A stretch of DNA of 64,000 nucleotides from Thermoplasmata archaeon (lineage in GTDB: Archaea; Thermoplasmatota; Thermoplasmata; Thermoplasmatales; Thermoplasmataceae), in contig JAKATN010000002.1 of the NCBI GenBank assembly GCA_021818715.1, positions 62,001 to 126,000 on the forward strand. Reading direction: 5' to 3'. Numbering within the stretch: position 1 is the stretch's first letter; each line of letters starts with the position of its first letter. Shown piece after piece: positions 31,279 through 38,703 of this stretch. The notes below the pieces were generated by a model. The model was not told where the DNA came from, made no database searches, and worked only from the letters and a program-made list of their open reading frames with translations. A program made the translations under genes and the position numbers.

Positions 31279-33588
31279 TCAGAGATCGCACTTTCCATCA
31301 GGACAGGCAGGATCGAAAGTTCCTTCAAGAAGAAGCAGGCCCCCTCCCGCATCGGTTTTGAGCTTGACCTCCACGGTTTCGTGCTTTGTTTCTCCGGAAT
31401 AGAGGACCTGTTCGGTCTTGCTCCTGTCCCTGTAGATCGTGATCCCCTTGCACTTGAGATCAAAGGCCATCCTGTAAGCCTTCTCCACGTCTTCTATCTT
31501 CGCTTCAGCGGGAAGGTTGATAGTCTTGGACACGCCGGAATCACAGTATCTCTGGAATGTTGCCTGCATCATTATGTGCCACTCCGGAGTAATCTCGTGC
31601 GCAGTGCTGAAAATGGATTTCAGATCCTCGGGCAAATCCACATGCGCAAGGCTGCCTGTCTCTGCGATTTCCAGCATAATGGACTCCGAATAGAGCCCGC
31701 GTCTCTTCAACTCCTGCTCGAGAAACTCATTTTTCTCCACCAGAGTCTTTCCAGAAAGTACATGCCTGACATATGAAAGGGCGAAGTAAGGTTCAATGGA
31801 GGAGGAGCAGTTTGCAATTATTGAAATGGTGCCCGTGGGTGCTATGGTGGTAGTTGTCGAATTCCTCATCTTTATTCCCTGCTGCTTCCAGGTGGATCCT
31901 TCCCACGCAGGGAAGCAACCACGTTCCTTTGCTAGTTTTGACGATTCGTCGTGGGATATATCCTGCAGGAAGGACATCACTTCCTCTGCAGTTTTCAGCG
32001 CCTCTTTGCTGTTGTACGGCACACCAAGCTGGGCAAGCATATCTGCGAAACCCATTATGCCGAGCCCAATTTTCCTGGTTTTGTGCGTAACCTCATAAAT
32101 ATGTGCATCCGGGAACAGGTTTGCATCGATCACGTCATCCAGGAATCTCATCGATATCCGTATGGCTTCTTCAAGGGACTTGAAATCAATCTTGCCTCCG
32201 GATACAAACTTTGCCAGGTTTATTGATCCAAGGTTGCAGGATTCATACGGGAGAAGCGGCTGTTCTCCGCATGGGTTGGTCGCCTCAATCGCTCCAACAT
32301 TGGGAACAGTGTTATGCCTGTTCACCTCGTCAATGAAGATGAGCCCCGGATCTGCCGTTTTCCACGCCTGCGAAACAATTGAATCCCAGAGTGCAGAGGC
32401 CCTGATCTGCCTCTCAATCTTTCCGTTTCTTGGGTTGACAAGGTCTATGTTTTCATCCCTGTCAAGTTTCTCAAAGAATCCGGAATCTACTGCGACAGAG
32501 ATGTTGAAATTACGCAACTTCTGGTTCTCGCTGTCCTTTGAGTTGACAAATTCCATTATATCCGGGTGATCATACCGGAGTATTCCCATGTTAGCGCCAC
32601 GGCGTTTCCCTCCCTGTTTTATGACTTCCGTAGTGGTGTCAAATATCTTCATGAACGAGACCGGTCCGGAAGCCACCCCCTTCGATGACCCGACTAAGTC
32701 ATCCTTAGGCCTGAGGGAAGAGAAGGAGAATCCAGTTCCACCGCCGGATTTGTGGATCTTTGCAGTAAGTTTCAGTGAATCAAAAATTCCGTCTATATTG
32801 TCCCCTACCGGTATCACAAAACAGGCAGAAAGCTGCCCAAGTTCTGTGCCCGCATTCATCAGCGTGGGGGAATTGGGCATGAACTTCATCGATACCATGA
32901 GATCCATGAATTTCTCCGTATAGCTGTTTACCGAGTTCTTGTTAGTTGCCAGGAATTTCTCAAGCTTTTCCAGGTCTTCCTGCGAAGGTTCTTTGCCAAA
33001 CACGGATTTGTAGGCAATCTTCATTGAATTCTTCTGGTAGTTAGACAGGTGCGGTAGCATAGTCAAGTCGGAATTTCTTGTCCTGGAGTTCTTTGCCGAC
33101 GCAAAAAATTCATAGACGCCCTCCACGACCCCTATGGATTCTGCAACCCTCCTGAACAGTTGCCTGGGGGTTTCAATAATCTTTGCGTCCGCATCCTTAA
33201 GAAGGTACCTGGATTCTAGCACGGTAGCTGCATTCAGCGACAGTTTCAGGTCATCGCTGACGCCAAGCCTCTTCTTCTCCTCCCTGATTATGCTCCTGTT
33301 CTCCCTGTAAAGGATGTAAGTTCTTGCAACGTCAGCAAAGGACTTACCCTTGGGGGAATAGTGCATGAGCTCCTCTTCCACCATATCCTGCACCATTTCG
33401 ACATGCGGAACCTCGTGAGTGCTTTCCAGTCTTGCCACCACCAGGTCGCAGATCTTCTCTGCATCCTGGACAGCCCCATGATTGGCGGACAGCATCGCTT
33501 TGTACACTGCCTTGGTGATCCTTTCCTTTTCAAACGGGACTGACGTCCCGTCACGCTTTATTATCTCTTTTATGGTCATTTTTCTCAT
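31279..33588 (-). CDS. nrdJ: Class II (adenosylcobalamin-dependent) ribonucleotide reductase
   Basis: It reduces ribonucleotides with a radical generated from coenzyme B12 and needs no small subunit. Of 769 residues, the first 90 form an ATP-cone (IKRDGTSVPFEKERITKAVY). The barrel has SACFVIP (first redox cysteine), KSGGGTGFSFSSLRP, the catalytic cysteine in NPCGEQPLLPYESCNLGS, and APTGTISIIANCSSSIEP, all typical of the NrdJ/NrdZ branch. The C-terminus ends with a cysteine pair (ACPDGKC) that would re-reduce the active site. ATG at 33579 is an alternative start. It follows nrdB by 6 bases, so class I and class II genes are co-transcribed. Confidence 0.96.
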   Translation of the reverse strand: MRKMTIKEIIKRDGTSVPFEKERITKAVYKAMLSANHGAVQDAEKICDLVVARLESTHEVPHVEMVQDMVEEELMHYSPKGKSFADVARTYILYRENRSIIREEKKRLGVSDDLKLSLNAATVLESRYLLKDADAKIIETPRQLFRRVAESIGVVEGVYEFFASAKNSRTRNSDLTMLPHLSNYQKNSMKIAYKSVFGKEPSQEDLEKLEKFLATNKNSVNSYTEKFMDLMVSMKFMPNSPTLMNAGTELGQLSACFVIPVGDNIDGIFDSLKLTAKIHKSGGGTGFSFSSLRPKDDLVGSSKGVASGPVSFMKIFDTTTEVIKQGGKRRGANMGILRYDHPDIMEFVNSKDSENQKLRNFNISVAVDSGFFEKLDRDENIDLVNPRNGKIERQIRASALWDSIVSQAWKTADPGLIFIDEVNRHNTVPNVGAIEATNPCGEQPLLPYESCNLGSINLAKFVSGGKIDFKSLEEAIRISMRFLDDVIDANLFPDAHIYEVTHKTRKIGLGIMGFADMLAQLGVPYNSKEALKTAEEVMSFLQDISHDESSKLAKERGCFPAWEGSTWKQQGIKMRNSTTTTIAPTGTISIIANCSSSIEPYFALSYVRHVLSGKTLVEKNEFLEQELKRRGLYSESIMLEIAETGSLAHVDLPEDLKSIFSTAHEITPEWHIMMQATFQRYCDSGVSKTINLPAEAKIEDVEKAYRMAFDLKCKGITIYRDRSKTEQVLYSGETKHETVEVKLKTDAGGGLLLLEGTFDPACPDGKCDL

Positions 33589-33594
33589 CTCGTA

Positions 33595-34677
33595 TTATTT
33601 CTGTTCATTCTGGGAAGGCGGCCTCAGCCTCCCAATGTTGAAGTTCTTCCCCGTCTTCTGATAATTCGTCACTCTTCTCTCGAAGAAGTCGGTCTTGGTC
33701 AGGTTCATGGAAGAGTATGATTCGATCCATGAAAGCGGATGCGTCTTCTGATCAGGATATGGCTCTGGTAAATTAACCGCTTTACTTCTGATATTTCCAA
33801 GATATTTTATGTACATCTCGATGGCCTGATCGCTAAGTCCAAGGATCTGGTTCCTGGTCACGTATTTCCCCCACTCTATCTCATGCGTAACCGCAGTTTT
33901 AACCATTGCTGTCAGGTCAGACATAATCCCGGGAGTAAACCACTCACGGTTTTCGTCCATCAGTGTCCGCATTATGTCGGTGAACAGGGCGAGGTGGGTG
34001 TTCTCATCCCTCTGTATGAGCCTTATCATGCTCACCGTCCCTCCCATCTTGTCCTGCCTTCCCAGGGTGTAGAAAAATGCAAAACCGCTATAGAAATAAA
34101 CCCCCTCCAGAAGGAAGTCAGCCATGCACGACCTGATGAAATTCTCTGGAGAGGGATCGGCGATAAACTTCTCATAGAGGTCGGTGATGAACCTGTTTCT
34201 CCTGAGGAGATGAGAGTCATCCTTCCAGAGATCATATACCGCATCCCTCGTCATGTGATCGACTACAGAAGTGAGGAGATAATCGTAACTCTGCGCATGG
34301 ATCGTCTCAAAAAATGCCTGGGCCTTCAGGCAGGCGGTCACCTCAGGTGCGGTGATGTAAGAGGCGATCGCTCCCAGGTTATCTATCTGTATGCTGTCCA
34401 GAAAGATCAGGAAGGATAGGGTCTTCTTGTAGGCATCCTGTTCGTGGGGAGTGAGCGTGGGGTACTGCCTTTTGTCGTCAACAAGCGGCAGCTCGTCCGG
34501 TATCCAGAAGAAACTCCTCATCTTCTTGTAGAGTTCCTCCGCCCAACCATATCTGCAGTTGTCGAATTCCAGCAGGTTGGTTGATGGGCCGCCCACAAGC
34601 CTCTGTACACTTCTGTCCCTTGTCCCTTCCGGGTTGAACAGCCTCTTCTGTGACATCGTCTCATTTATGCCTGGCAT
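33595..34677 (-). CDS. nrdB: Class I ribonucleotide reductase small subunit (R2), apparently active
   Basis: R2 holds the diiron-tyrosyl radical used by NrdA. All metal ligands are visible: D94, E124, H127, E191, E225 and H228, with the radical tyrosine Y131 four residues after H127 (ETIHAQSYDY). The C-terminal tail after WIESYSSMN extends about 40 residues and contains a tyrosine in RRVTNYQ, as needed for radical transfer and docking to R1. A GTG at 34686 is possible, but the perfect Shine-Dalgarno AGGAGGTG lies 8 bases before ATG 34677, which overlaps the nrdA end. The result is 360 residues. Confidence 0.96.
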   Translation of the reverse strand: MPGINETMSQKRLFNPEGTRDRSVQRLVGGPSTNLLEFDNCRYGWAEELYKKMRSFFWIPDELPLVDDKRQYPTLTPHEQDAYKKTLSFLIFLDSIQIDNLGAIASYITAPEVTACLKAQAFFETIHAQSYDYLLTSVVDHMTRDAVYDLWKDDSHLLRRNRFITDLYEKFIADPSPENFIRSCMADFLLEGVYFYSGFAFFYTLGRQDKMGGTVSMIRLIQRDENTHLALFTDIMRTLMDENREWFTPGIMSDLTAMVKTAVTHEIEWGKYVTRNQILGLSDQAIEMYIKYLGNIRSKAVNLPEPYPDQKTHPLSWIESYSSMNLTKTDFFERRVTNYQKTGKNFNIGRLRPPSQNEQK

Positions 34678-37298
34678 GACTCGCACACCTCCTCGCTCTT
34701 TGTTTCCTCGTTTATGGTGAAGTTGCGGAAATAGTAGATGGTCTTCACCCCAAGCTTCCAGGCCTGGAAATATACCCCGAGAAGGTACTGCTCATCAAGT
34801 GCCTCCGTGGCGTATACATTCATTGACTGTGACTGATCAAGATGACGCTGCCTGGCAGCAGCCGCCTTGATGCTCCACATCTGATCAATGGAATGCGCAC
34901 CCTTATAGAATGGCGCAGTCCCGTCATTCAGGTTGGGTGCAATCTGCTTGATGATGAAGCCCTTCTTTTCCTCGACGAAGACTGGCTTGAACACAGGATC
35001 AATGCCGGCGGTTGAACCGGCAATCACGGACGTGGATCCTGTGGGTGCAATAGCCATTATGTAGCCATTCCTCACCCCATCCTTCCGGACTTCTTCCTTA
35101 AGCTTGAGCCATCTTTCGCTTTCATAACCCCTCAGCCTGAAGTATTCTCCTGATTCCCAGTCACTTTCTTTAAAGAGGGGATACGCGCCTCTTTCCCTTG
35201 CAAGCTCTACCTCGCTCTTTATGGCTATGTAGTTGATCTCTTCAAACAGTTTGTCGGCGTACTCCAGATGTTCGTCTGACTCCCAGTCTATCCCCCTCTC
35301 TGCCAGATGCTGGTGATACCCTGAAATGCCGACCCCTATAGCCCTGTACCTGGCATTCGTCAGCCTAGCCTGTTCAAGAGGCAGATTGTTCATGGTGATC
35401 ACGTTATCAAGCATACGAATCTGCACAGGGATCACCTCGTTCAGCTTTTCGAGAGTGTCTGTCCGTCCAAGGTTTATAGATGACAGGTTGCAAACCACGA
35501 GGTCTCCGGGAATGTAACGCTTCTCTATTTCCTCTTCAGCAACGCCTTCATTTTTGAGGACAGTTGGCGACTGGTTCTGGCAGATTTCAGTGCACAGGTT
35601 GGAAGAATAAATCATGCCGGCGTGCTTGTTCGGGTTCATCCTGTTCACAGTGTCCCTGTTGAAGATGAACGGCCCCCCTGTTTCATAAAGGCTCCTTAGT
35701 ATCTGGCCAAATATATCGAGAGCCGGGATAGTTTTCCTGCTTATCCTGCTGTCGGAAACACAGTCCAGGTATCTCTTTTCCCACTCTTCTCCCCAGAAAT
35801 CTTCCAGGGACCATCCTTTGACGCTCCTGATCTCATGTGGATCAAAGAGATTCCACTCACCATCCTTCTCAATTTCCCTGTAAAAAAGATCGGGAATGCA
35901 CACTCCAGGAAAGACATCGTATGCCCTCCTCCTCTCATCGCCGTTGTTGGTTTTCAAGTCGAGGAAATCCAGAATGTCTTTGTGCCATATATCCAGCCAC
36001 AGGCTGACTGCGCCTGCGCGTTGCCCCAGCTGGTTAACCGATACTGCGGTGTCATTGTAAAGCCTTACCCAGGGAACTATTCCGCTGCCGGCGCCCTTAT
36101 ACCCTCTTATGGTGCTGCCGAGCGATCTCAGTTTCCCCAGATATACTCCCATCCCCCCTCCATTCTGGGACACCTTGGCAAAGGTTGTCAGCCCGTCGAA
36201 TATAGCTTGAAGCGAGTCATCGGGCGTATCAATGAAGCAGGAGCTGAGCTGCCCGTCAAGCCTCCTCGCGTTGGCAAGCGTCGGTGTCGCTACTGTTATG
36301 TACAGGTTTGAAAGGACATCATAAAACTTCTTCGCCCATTTTATTCTATCTTCCGGCTTCTCGGCAATGGCCAGGAAGCAGGCAATGCCCATAAAGGTCT
36401 CCTGAGGGAGTTCCAGTACCTCATCCTGCAGGCCCTTTATGCAATATCTGTCCGAGAGATGTTTTAATCCTGCGTACGTGAACAGCCTATCCTTGTCAGG
36501 TCTGATGTATGATCCCAGCTCCTCAAGATCCTCCTTTGTGTATGTCTGCAATACCTTTGGATCGTACCTGCCTATCTTCGTCAGGGTGTTCACGAGATCA
36601 TGAAAGCTGCCATATCCATGCGGGGACAGCCTGTTTTTGGATGCTTCCTTGTAAAGATCGTGGAGAAGCAGGCGCGCAGCCACGTAAGTCCAGTTTGGTT
36701 GGGATGCCGTAGTTTTCTCGTTCGCGACTTTTATGAGTGTTTCCTGTATCGCTCTGGTTGAAACTCCCTCGTAGAAATGAATTTGGGAATCGACCTCAAG
36801 GACAAGCGGATCAACCCCGGCCAGCCCGTCACAGGCATCCATGACGACATTCCTGATCTTTCCTACATCTATTGGCACTCTCTCTCCTTTCCTGTTGGTC
36901 ACAGTTGTCGGGCGGAGCCTAAGATCAACGCGCGGTTGTTCAAGCACTACCTGCCCCTTTCCGGAAGGAATCGATTTTTCAGAAAGGCGCTGCTTTTCCT
37001 CCCTTATTTTCCTCCTGTTTTCCCTGTAAAGGATGTAGGATTCGGCCACTTCGGAAAATCTCTTTCCGCCGATTTCTTCGTTCAAAAGCATTTTGATTAC
37101 GATGTCCTGAACGTCCTCTACCGTCGGCATATCACCTGCTTCTTCAAGGGACTTCAGAACCATCCCGGTGAATTTCTCAGCATCATCGATATCGCCGATC
37201 CCTGACGAGTGCATTGCCTTGAAGATAGCCTGCGTGATCTTTTTAGGCTGAAATTCCACTACATTTCCGTCTCTCTTTACAATTGTCCTGATCGCCAT
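34665..37298 (-). CDS. nrdA: Class I ribonucleotide reductase large subunit (R1)
   Basis: The 877 residues start with two ATP-cone domains (about 1-95 starting IRTIVKRDGNVVEF, and about 125-215 starting TVTNRKGERVPIDV), which bind the dATP/ATP that sets overall activity. The barrel has QLSSCFID (redox cysteine), KVSQNGGGMGVYLG, the NLCTEI catalytic segment, CNLSSINLG, and APTGSTSVIAGSTAGIDP. The tail ends with CESC, the external redox pair. ATG 37298 has an AGGTGG Shine-Dalgarno 7 bases upstream, better placed than the TTG at 37304. Tandem repeats upstream may be an operator. Confidence 0.96.
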   Translation of the reverse strand: MAIRTIVKRDGNVVEFQPKKITQAIFKAMHSSGIGDIDDAEKFTGMVLKSLEEAGDMPTVEDVQDIVIKMLLNEEIGGKRFSEVAESYILYRENRRKIREEKQRLSEKSIPSGKGQVVLEQPRVDLRLRPTTVTNRKGERVPIDVGKIRNVVMDACDGLAGVDPLVLEVDSQIHFYEGVSTRAIQETLIKVANEKTTASQPNWTYVAARLLLHDLYKEASKNRLSPHGYGSFHDLVNTLTKIGRYDPKVLQTYTKEDLEELGSYIRPDKDRLFTYAGLKHLSDRYCIKGLQDEVLELPQETFMGIACFLAIAEKPEDRIKWAKKFYDVLSNLYITVATPTLANARRLDGQLSSCFIDTPDDSLQAIFDGLTTFAKVSQNGGGMGVYLGKLRSLGSTIRGYKGAGSGIVPWVRLYNDTAVSVNQLGQRAGAVSLWLDIWHKDILDFLDLKTNNGDERRRAYDVFPGVCIPDLFYREIEKDGEWNLFDPHEIRSVKGWSLEDFWGEEWEKRYLDCVSDSRISRKTIPALDIFGQILRSLYETGGPFIFNRDTVNRMNPNKHAGMIYSSNLCTEICQNQSPTVLKNEGVAEEEIEKRYIPGDLVVCNLSSINLGRTDTLEKLNEVIPVQIRMLDNVITMNNLPLEQARLTNARYRAIGVGISGYHQHLAERGIDWESDEHLEYADKLFEEINYIAIKSEVELARERGAYPLFKESDWESGEYFRLRGYESERWLKLKEEVRKDGVRNGYIMAIAPTGSTSVIAGSTAGIDPVFKPVFVEEKKGFIIKQIAPNLNDGTAPFYKGAHSIDQMWSIKAAAARQRHLDQSQSMNVYATEALDEQYLLGVYFQAWKLGVKTIYYFRNFTINEETKSEEVCESCQA

Positions 37299-37304
37299 CT
37301 TCAA

Positions 37305-37704
37305 GCCACCTGCTGGTAAAAGGGAAGAAATACTGACGAATCTAAAGGAAATTTGACACTCTTATTGAATTGGATTTTGAGCAAGTTGATACTATATTGA
37401 TCTGGATATTTAACTGGATATTTATCCATTAATAGTCATGAAGTTAGTAATATTTAAAGTTAATAACCAGAATCCAGCAACATTGTGATATGGGAGGGGC
37501 AACTGGTATGCGTCTCCACATCAGGGACGCGATTTTTACCTTTAACTTCTGCTGCAGACAAAGGGCAAAATGCACACGAATCCACTTCGGAAATTTTTGA
37601 GGATGGTGATCGGTATCACTAGTATCAGGCATTATGAAACGAATGAAGACATGCTCGGGAACTGATCAATGGCTGATAGCATAAATTACGGCAAAGATCA
37701 CTGC
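37305..37704 (-). other. nrdA upstream region
   Basis: This 400-base spacer separates the R2-like gene from nrdA on the same strand. The nrdA-proximal third is AT-rich and carries a TATA-like CAATATAGTATC near 37388-37399 and a tandem repeat at 37402-37424. Several more AT-rich elements lie up to 37470. The distal half holds no convincing gene; a 62-codon frame on the minus strand (37632-37444) has protein composition unlike its neighbours and no ribosome site. The length suggests a complex regulatory region with a 5' leader of about 60-70 bases. Confidence 0.55.
37402..37427. repeat. Tandem repeat and palindrome upstream of nrdA
   Basis: CTGGATATTTA occurs at 37402-37412 and again at 37414-37424 (12-base period). 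The second copy runs into TCC to make the palindrome GGATATTTATCC (37416-37427). It lies just upstream of the TATA-like element of nrdA, where an operator or activator site would be expected. Confidence 0.6.
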
Positions 37705-38703
37705 CTATTTCTTTATCTCTATAAGCGAATCATACCATGGAATCGGGCTCCCGCTGATGCCGGGATATAAGGTGGCTATGTTCAGGGCCTTGGCTTCCCT
37801 GTTGGCAAGTGCCTGGCTGAACCGCGTAAGTGCAAAGTCAGTGAGGCCGGGTGCCATCCCTTCCGTGACGTTATGTATGAAATCCGTCTCCGATCTTATA
37901 AGTTCCTTGATGACATCTGAGGAAATAGAGTTGAAAGTGTCATTCTGCAGCTGAGGGTTCTCCTCCAGTATGGTGTTGACCGTCTTGACAAGCAATTCAT
38001 ACTGAAGGATTATGTCCCTGTTTATATATTTCACAAGGTTTGTGGTGAAGATGAGCCTGTTGTGTCTGGAAAAGGCATAAATCACCGCGAATTCTGTAGG
38101 TAGAATGGATCCGACAACCACTGCCGAAGTTATGAGGTTCAGCAGGAAATTCTCTACAATCGGCTCTCTGATATAGGAGAAAAAGTAGTCGTTGATGATC
38201 CTGTTCCTGCTCTTGAACCATTCAGTAGTTCGCCAGGACTCATAGATCGGTTCCCTGAGGTTCTGCGGCAGGGCATGGACTGCAATCTGGGTGTAAGAGT
38301 CTGCGTGCAAAGTTTCCTGGAAGGATAATCCGGAGTAGGCCGCAACAACTTCCGGCGAAGTGAAATAAGGCAAAATCACCTCATAGTTGGAAAAAAGTAT
38401 ACTTTCAACAATCATCAGGGAGGAAAGGGTGCGCATAAATATCTTCCTGTCAAGGTCAGACAGCGCTGAGAAATCCCTGTTTTCCCTGTCAAGGTTGAAC
38501 TCTGCGGGATTATATGTATTGGAAACAATTTTTCTGTAAATCGAAGCCGCCCATGGATACTTGGGGTCGTCCAGTGACAGTAGATTTGTGTGGCTTCCCC
38601 CAATTATACGTTTCCTGCTGACCCACTTGTCTCCGCTCTCGTTGAAGAGGAAGATCCGCTGCATCCTGTCCCTTGCGGAAAGCCCGCTTTTGCTCTCTAT
38701 CAT
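37705..38703 (-). CDS. Degenerate R2-like ribonucleotide reductase paralogue (second-iron half-site lost)
   Basis: This 332-residue product aligns without gaps to NrdB through the ligand helices: IIGGSHTNLLSLDDPKYPW, QETLHADSYT and YINRD match. It keeps E100 (in place of Asp), E130, H133 and the radical tyrosine position Y137. The other ligands are replaced: Glu by V197, Glu by I231 and His by Q234. It also ends right after the PIPWYDS segment, about 30-35 residues short, so the tail that docks R2 into R1 is missing. A structural or regulatory partner of NrdB (as yeast Rnr4) is likely; a metal-free radical protein is the alternative. A box at 38731-38740 favours ATG 38703 over the longer frame from 38850. 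Confidence 0.88.
   Translation of the reverse strand: MIESKSGLSARDRMQRIFLFNESGDKWVSRKRIIGGSHTNLLSLDDPKYPWAASIYRKIVSNTYNPAEFNLDRENRDFSALSDLDRKIFMRTLSSLMIVESILFSNYEVILPYFTSPEVVAAYSGLSFQETLHADSYTQIAVHALPQNLREPIYESWRTTEWFKSRNRIINDYFFSYIREPIVENFLLNLITSAVVVGSILPTEFAVIYAFSRHNRLIFTTNLVKYINRDIILQYELLVKTVNTILEENPQLQNDTFNSISSDVIKELIRSETDFIHNVTEGMAPGLTDFALTRFSQALANREAKALNIATLYPGISGSPIPWYDSLIEIKK

Follow-up and report, generated by a model that had tools for sequence, protein, structure and literature searches.

An R2-like protein without a complete metal site and without a docking tail, encoded beside class I ribonucleotide reductase in Thermoplasmatales, is a candidate non-catalytic partner of NrdB

Why does an archaeon keep, next to the genes of a complete class I ribonucleotide reductase (RNR), a second copy of the radical subunit (R2, NrdB) that has lost much of its catalytic equipment? 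Yeast and Plasmodium are known to have non-catalytic R2 partners, and the need for a disarmed copy is still unsettled. The question is raised here by a stretch of 64,000 nucleotides from a Thermoplasmata archaeon (contig JAKATN010000002.1 of assembly GCA_021818715.1, positions 62,001 to 126,000), which we call the window. The minus-strand ORF at 37705-38703 encodes a protein of 332 amino acids, named R2L (R2-like protein) in this study, with an ATG at 38703 and the stop codon at 37705-37707. Since M1 is invariant across the orthologue alignment, this ATG is the right start and the longer ORF beginning with TTG is wrong. R2L is followed on the same strand by nrdA, nrdB and nrdJ. The nrdA gene (34665-37304, minus strand) encodes the class I large subunit with two ATP-cones; its ORF opens with TTG at 37304, and the ATG at 37298 is the likelier start. 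It is overlapped by nrdB (33595-34677, minus strand), which encodes a canonical R2 with all six metal ligands, the radical tyrosine, Trp48 and the C-terminal tail. Directly downstream of nrdB, nrdJ (31279-33588, minus strand) encodes a class II (B12) RNR. The complete class I RNR reported beside R2L in a preliminary description of this DNA is thus present. The genome of the window contains exactly two R2-family genes, R2L and nrdB.

By its sequence, R2L is a paralogue of R2/NrdB, which is the radical subunit of class I RNR. It aligns with the neighbouring NrdB over 313 amino acids with 29% identity and 0 gaps (BLASTP). With the Pfam model Ribonuc_red_sm (PF00268, cut-off 33.6), R2L scores 136 bits and NrdB 244 bits. 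The best NCBIfam family matches of R2L are bacterial-type NrdBs, and with the nearest of these models, NF007184, R2L scores 206 bits, which is under the cut-off of 310, and NrdB 434 bits. R2L and NrdB have 24 nearly invariant columns in common, among them those of the N-terminal arm (LFN..G / GG..T). The AlphaFold2 model of R2L, built from an input of 32 sequences, had a pLDDT of 89.1 and a pTM of 0.90, and the ferritin-like R2 fold is predicted to be intact. In a Foldseek search the best solved match to the model was the R2 of Aquifex aeolicus (7ail; TM 0.92, 1.6 Å), followed by that of Clostridium botulinum (6zjk). These two NrdBs are the closest solved structures to R2L by both sequence and fold (TM 0.91-0.92); unlike R2L, both carry the ligands of the second half-site in the alignment and a tail where the window NrdB has one. 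R2L therefore shares the fold and family of canonical NrdB but lacks its six-ligand set, its radical path and its tail.

The losses can be located residue by residue. Positions are also given in E. coli numbering, for which a sequence taken as that of E. coli NrdB was used purely as a ruler. Of the six metal ligands of NrdB, three, namely E191, E225 and H228 (E. coli E204, E238 and H241), are replaced in R2L by V197 (38113-38115), I231 (38011-38013) and Q234 (38002-38004), all on the minus strand; the codons of I231 and Q234 were read directly in the DNA. R2L retains the first half-site (E100, E130 and H133) as well as its radical tyrosine (Y137), with E130-x-x-H133 (E. coli E115 and H118) encoded at 38305-38316 of the minus strand. 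This gap-free alignment bears out the substitutions and retained residues of the preliminary description, and the early stop that it noted before the R1-docking tail is equally clear: NrdB runs on with ...TKTDFFERRVTNYQKTG... where R2L ends, so that the tail and the Tyr356 equivalent are missing. One change had been overlooked, namely that the equivalent of Trp48 is Tyr in the window R2L. Only Asp237 is retained among Trp48, Asp237 and Tyr356. With the Trp48 position changed and the tail with Tyr356 missing, the path that would carry a radical from R2L to NrdA is interrupted at each end.

To what extent this pattern is typical was seen in the orthologues. There are 18 R2L sequences in total, one of which is broken by a contig end, and the ligand positions of the 17 full-length R2L sequences were surveyed against 16 NrdBs. 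The canonical set is D/E-E-H-E-E-H, and in every R2L at most three of these six positions carry a ligand-type residue. The E. coli D84 position is E in 16 of 17 R2Ls and the H118 equivalent is present in all 17, and E115 is retained in 4, E204 in 1 and E238 in none. Position 238 is always I, L or V. Position 241 is H in ten sequences, Q in six and N in one. Tyr occupies the Y122 position in 12 of 17, with Leu in all five full-length sequences of the genus that we label g2. The Trp48 equivalent is found in 6 of 17 R2Ls and the D237 equivalent in all; a C-terminal docking tail was found in none of the 17. In addition, R2L has gained an acid: E204 in its own numbering (38092-38094, minus strand; E. 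coli S211) is E or D in 17/17 R2Ls, and the same position is Gly in 16/16 NrdBs. These alignments exclude that the canonical positions supply a complete di-metal site, although other residues may form a metal site. The preliminary description had proposed to look for the exact V-I-Q pattern in relatives with synteny to nrdAB. Orthologues do lie beside nrdA; V-I-Q itself, however, is not conserved and appears as one of several states of a drifting site. The conserved signature of R2L, as read from the alignment, is the lack of a complete di-metal site and of the tail, an aliphatic residue at 238, His118 and Asp237, and the new acid at 211. The site looks like a remodelled non-catalytic core and not like plain decay, because the new acid at 211 and the fixed aliphatic residue at 238 match the best-conserved positions of the family.

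Loss of ligands together with retention of a tyrosine, as in the window R2L, recalls the class Ie R2 (R2e), which carries a metal-free radical on a modified tyrosine. In class Ie, the glutamates 115/204/238 are changed to QSK or VPK and both histidines are kept (PMC11846895). The window R2L likewise lacks three canonical ligands, but at other positions: it retains E115, loses H241 and has no Lys (E-V-I with Q at 241). The tyrosine is not conserved in the family, being Leu in g2, and R2L has no tail. NrdI (PF07972) had no match in the genome of the window, which is 91% complete. Furthermore, R2e is the catalytic subunit of its enzyme, whereas R2L has a complete sister NrdB. The earlier view that R2L does not belong to class Ie thus holds, and we reject this identity as very improbable.

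The loss of catalytic residues, together with evolution 3.5 times faster than that of NrdB, could also be taken for the decay of an nrdB pseudogene. The preliminary description had named stop codons or neutral substitution rates in relatives as the finding that would point this way. Neither was found: no copy across five genera contains a stop, 30 columns are invariant within the R2L alignment, and dN/dS lies at 0.02-0.06. In detail, the unsaturated R2L pairs gave 0.054 (G000-G001), 0.062 (G088-G002b), 0.024 (G004-G099) and 0.035 (G004-G098). When the same G000-G001 comparison was made for the neighbouring genes, dN/dS was 0.008 for NrdB and 0.075 for the first 646 codons of NrdA. These values indicate that R2L is under purifying selection and is less constrained than NrdB. 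Given the low dN/dS, the open frames and the conservation, a pseudogene is scarcely credible, and this explanation was rejected.

R2L was found, open in every case, in 17 genomes of five genera, all in one Thermoplasmatales family. The carriers met in a scan of named genomes are metagenome-assembled genomes such as Thermoplasmatales archaeon A_EUR_06 and UBA582, and no other group was found in that scan. A search of 390 genomes of the phylum detected R2L orthologues in this family alone, the remaining matches being weak, partial R2s; beyond the family, 400 genomes of the class yielded either a single NrdB or weak R2 matches. A viral origin was also considered and rejected: R2L had no relative among viral contigs, and its best phage and plasmid matches were ordinary NrdBs with identities of at most 31%. 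Both nrdA and nrdB are present in 15 of the 17 R2L genomes, and every aligned NrdB has all ligands. The two R2L genomes without NrdB, G006 and G088, are 76-77% complete. No RNR gene was found in G006 (76% complete), which indicates missing sequence. Wherever the contig shows it, the order is R2L-nrdA-nrdB on one strand, with G006 as the sole exception. The G006 R2L (L029:2252-3274) is the most divergent one and adjoins genes resembling glutamate formiminotransferase, with no nrdA beside it; it retains Glu at the E204 position of E. coli and has lost E115, E238 and H241. In G002, a second R2L-nrdA pair lies on a contig of 4.8 kb (L030, contig C31), and its R2L shares 97% identity with the R2L of another genus; this contig is probably misbinned or a contaminant.

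Conversely, nrdAB occurs without R2L in the four genomes of genus g3, one of which is 96% complete in 8 contigs, and in the half-complete genome G010. Since g3 is sister to the genus of the window in the NrdB tree (support 100/99), R2L was most likely lost in g3. The NrdB of g3 differs at three positions that are constant in all other NrdBs (P73S, D153E and P306L), but these changes show no evident relation to a partner. Because g3 has nrdAB without R2L, NrdB can apparently work alone there and R2L is probably accessory.

Taking these data together, we consider it rather probable that R2L is a non-catalytic beta-prime partner of NrdB, structural or regulatory, comparable to yeast Rnr4 and Plasmodium PfR4. 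Such a structural or regulatory role had been suggested in the preliminary description, and it is the best-supported reading; the pairing with NrdB is what we infer. R2L is unable to form a canonical di-metal cofactor, to hand a radical on to NrdA along the known path or to dock through a tail. In this model it would act via NrdB, in an NrdB/R2L (beta/beta-prime) dimer that carries a single radical site and a single tail. This dimer would stabilise NrdB, aid the assembly of the NrdB cofactor or tune the engagement of NrdA by NrdB, as has been suggested for Rnr4 and PfR4, and in this way would affect the activity of the enzyme. Pairing with NrdB is the simplest explanation because R2L is catalytically disarmed and tail-less, yet selected beside nrdA and nrdB. 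The loss of catalytic parts, the intact predicted fold, the purifying selection, the conserved locus and the co-inheritance with nrdA and nrdB all support it.

Rnr4 and PfR4 are R2s thought to be unable to make the radical, and they are described as partners within alpha2-beta-beta-prime complexes (PMC3824934). Rnr4 lacks residues for the di-iron centre, and a role as a chaperone or partner has been proposed; PfR4 binds both PfR2 and R1 (PMC3824934). R2L resembles Rnr4 in being a ligand-deficient paralogue of R2 fold whose genome also encodes a complete R2, a situation seen in 15 of the 17 genomes. It differs in being archaeal, in belonging to the bacterial-type NrdB group and in having no tail, and its heterodimer is putative. 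R2L would work most like Rnr4, and its membership in this group depends on the heterodimer. The apicomplexan R2_e2/PfR4 is likewise a separate, long-branched, non-canonical R2 clade with a drifting tyrosine beside a canonical R2. However, R2_e2 keeps most functional residues, and R2_e2/PfR4 retain the C-terminal docking motif that binds R1 (PMC3824934), whereas R2L has kept neither and the motif occurs in no R2L.

In the tree of R2L and NrdB, which was built without eukaryotic sequences, all R2Ls group in a single clade (support 100/100) that is separate from the NrdBs and has a long stem branch. R2L may be a lineage-specific duplicate of NrdB or of older origin: a tree constrained to unite it with the Thermoplasmatales NrdBs is 2.5 log-likelihood units worse (AU p = 0.16). 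In favour of a partner of NrdB, the pairwise distances of the two proteins are correlated (r = 0.95 over 45 pairs), with R2L evolving about 3.5 times faster. Co-inheritance of neighbouring genes, however, correlates distances even between proteins that make no contact, and the long branch would also fit a protein with its own new function. R2L may then be a homodimer with a role apart from NrdB, in which the remodelled core (E100, H133, E204 and D230) perhaps holds a single metal or a small ligand. The H118 and D237 equivalents and the acid at 211 in 17/17 sequences, E at the D84 position in 16/17 and the ever aliphatic 238 describe a defined core and not random decay, and the fast evolution and the long stem also agree with this explanation. 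Nevertheless, the H118-D237 pair may persist merely as a structural hydrogen bond, and the conserved place beside nrdA and the co-distribution with nrdAB argue against a role of this kind, which we regard as improbable.

The arrangement of the locus bears on how closely R2L and nrdAB are tied. In the window, a spacer of 400 bp (37305-37704, minus strand) separates R2L from nrdA; this spacer measures 96-450 bp in most genomes and 1087 bp in one. TATA-like boxes precede R2L and are also present in the spacer, ahead of nrdA. The one in the spacer, CTTTAAATAT, also occurs in a sister genome and is accompanied by a repeat with 12-bp spacing; from these elements, nrdAB probably has its own promoter, and separate transcription of R2L and nrdAB is plausible. 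A scan for bacterial-type promoters, a type of scan ill-suited to archaea, gave results close to chance. In three genera, the spacer that precedes nrdA contains short repeats spaced by 12 bp (window 37394-37417; L036:2011-2046; L034:10836-10867). They differ in sequence among the genera and agree in place and spacing; in L036, for example, CATGGTAAAAAT is present three times. They may be candidate sites for a regulator of nrdAB. No NrdR was found above the cut-off in the genome of the window, the sole match being the ATP-cone of nrdJ. Class I (nrdA, nrdB) and class II (nrdJ) RNR genes form one operon-like cluster in the window (31279-37304). The nrdJ gene lies within the RNR cluster in three genera and elsewhere in the genome in g2, g3 and g4. 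The NrdA of g2 and g4 (L033, L038 and L039) is without the first of the two N-terminal ATP-cones found in the window NrdA, which points to changed allosteric equipment among close relatives.

The spacer and the probable separate promoter mean that R2L is probably not tightly co-transcribed with nrdA, and this speaks against a partner of NrdB, as do the presence of nrdAB without R2L in g3 and the docking tail that PfR4, unlike R2L, has kept. They agree with a brake that acts through NrdB: mixed dimers with one active chain and one tail, or sequestration of NrdB, would lower the output of the class I enzyme, for example at low oxygen, when NrdJ takes over. A separate upstream gene with its own probable promoter, the loss of tail and metal site in all R2Ls, the dispensability of R2L in g3 and the presence of nrdJ in the same cluster in three genera are in line with such a brake. 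On the other hand, partners of the Rnr4 type are regarded as positive factors, and we think a brake unlikely, if slightly less so than a homodimer apart from NrdB.

As for the non-catalytic partner of NrdB, which we prefer, it is conceivable, though we put it forward only tentatively, that R2L represents an archaeal, tail-less form of such a partner that arose apparently independently of those in yeast and apicomplexans, with a remodelled and selected core (acid at 211, aliphatic at 238, H118/D237), and that it controls class I RNR through asymmetric dimers with a single tail, possibly as a switch between class I and class II. Searches of the open-licence literature met with no account of an archaeal R2 that lacks metal ligands. 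R2L scores below the NCBI cut-off for NrdB and above that of Pfam, and such proteins are therefore easily misannotated as active R2. If R2L is a partner of NrdB, it would be a prokaryotic example of a non-catalytic R2, selected in the small genomes of acidophiles and absent in a sister genus, and would thus offer a simple system for the role of this subunit. It would also mean that R2 dimers became asymmetric on more than one occasion and that one of their chains can do without its docking tail.
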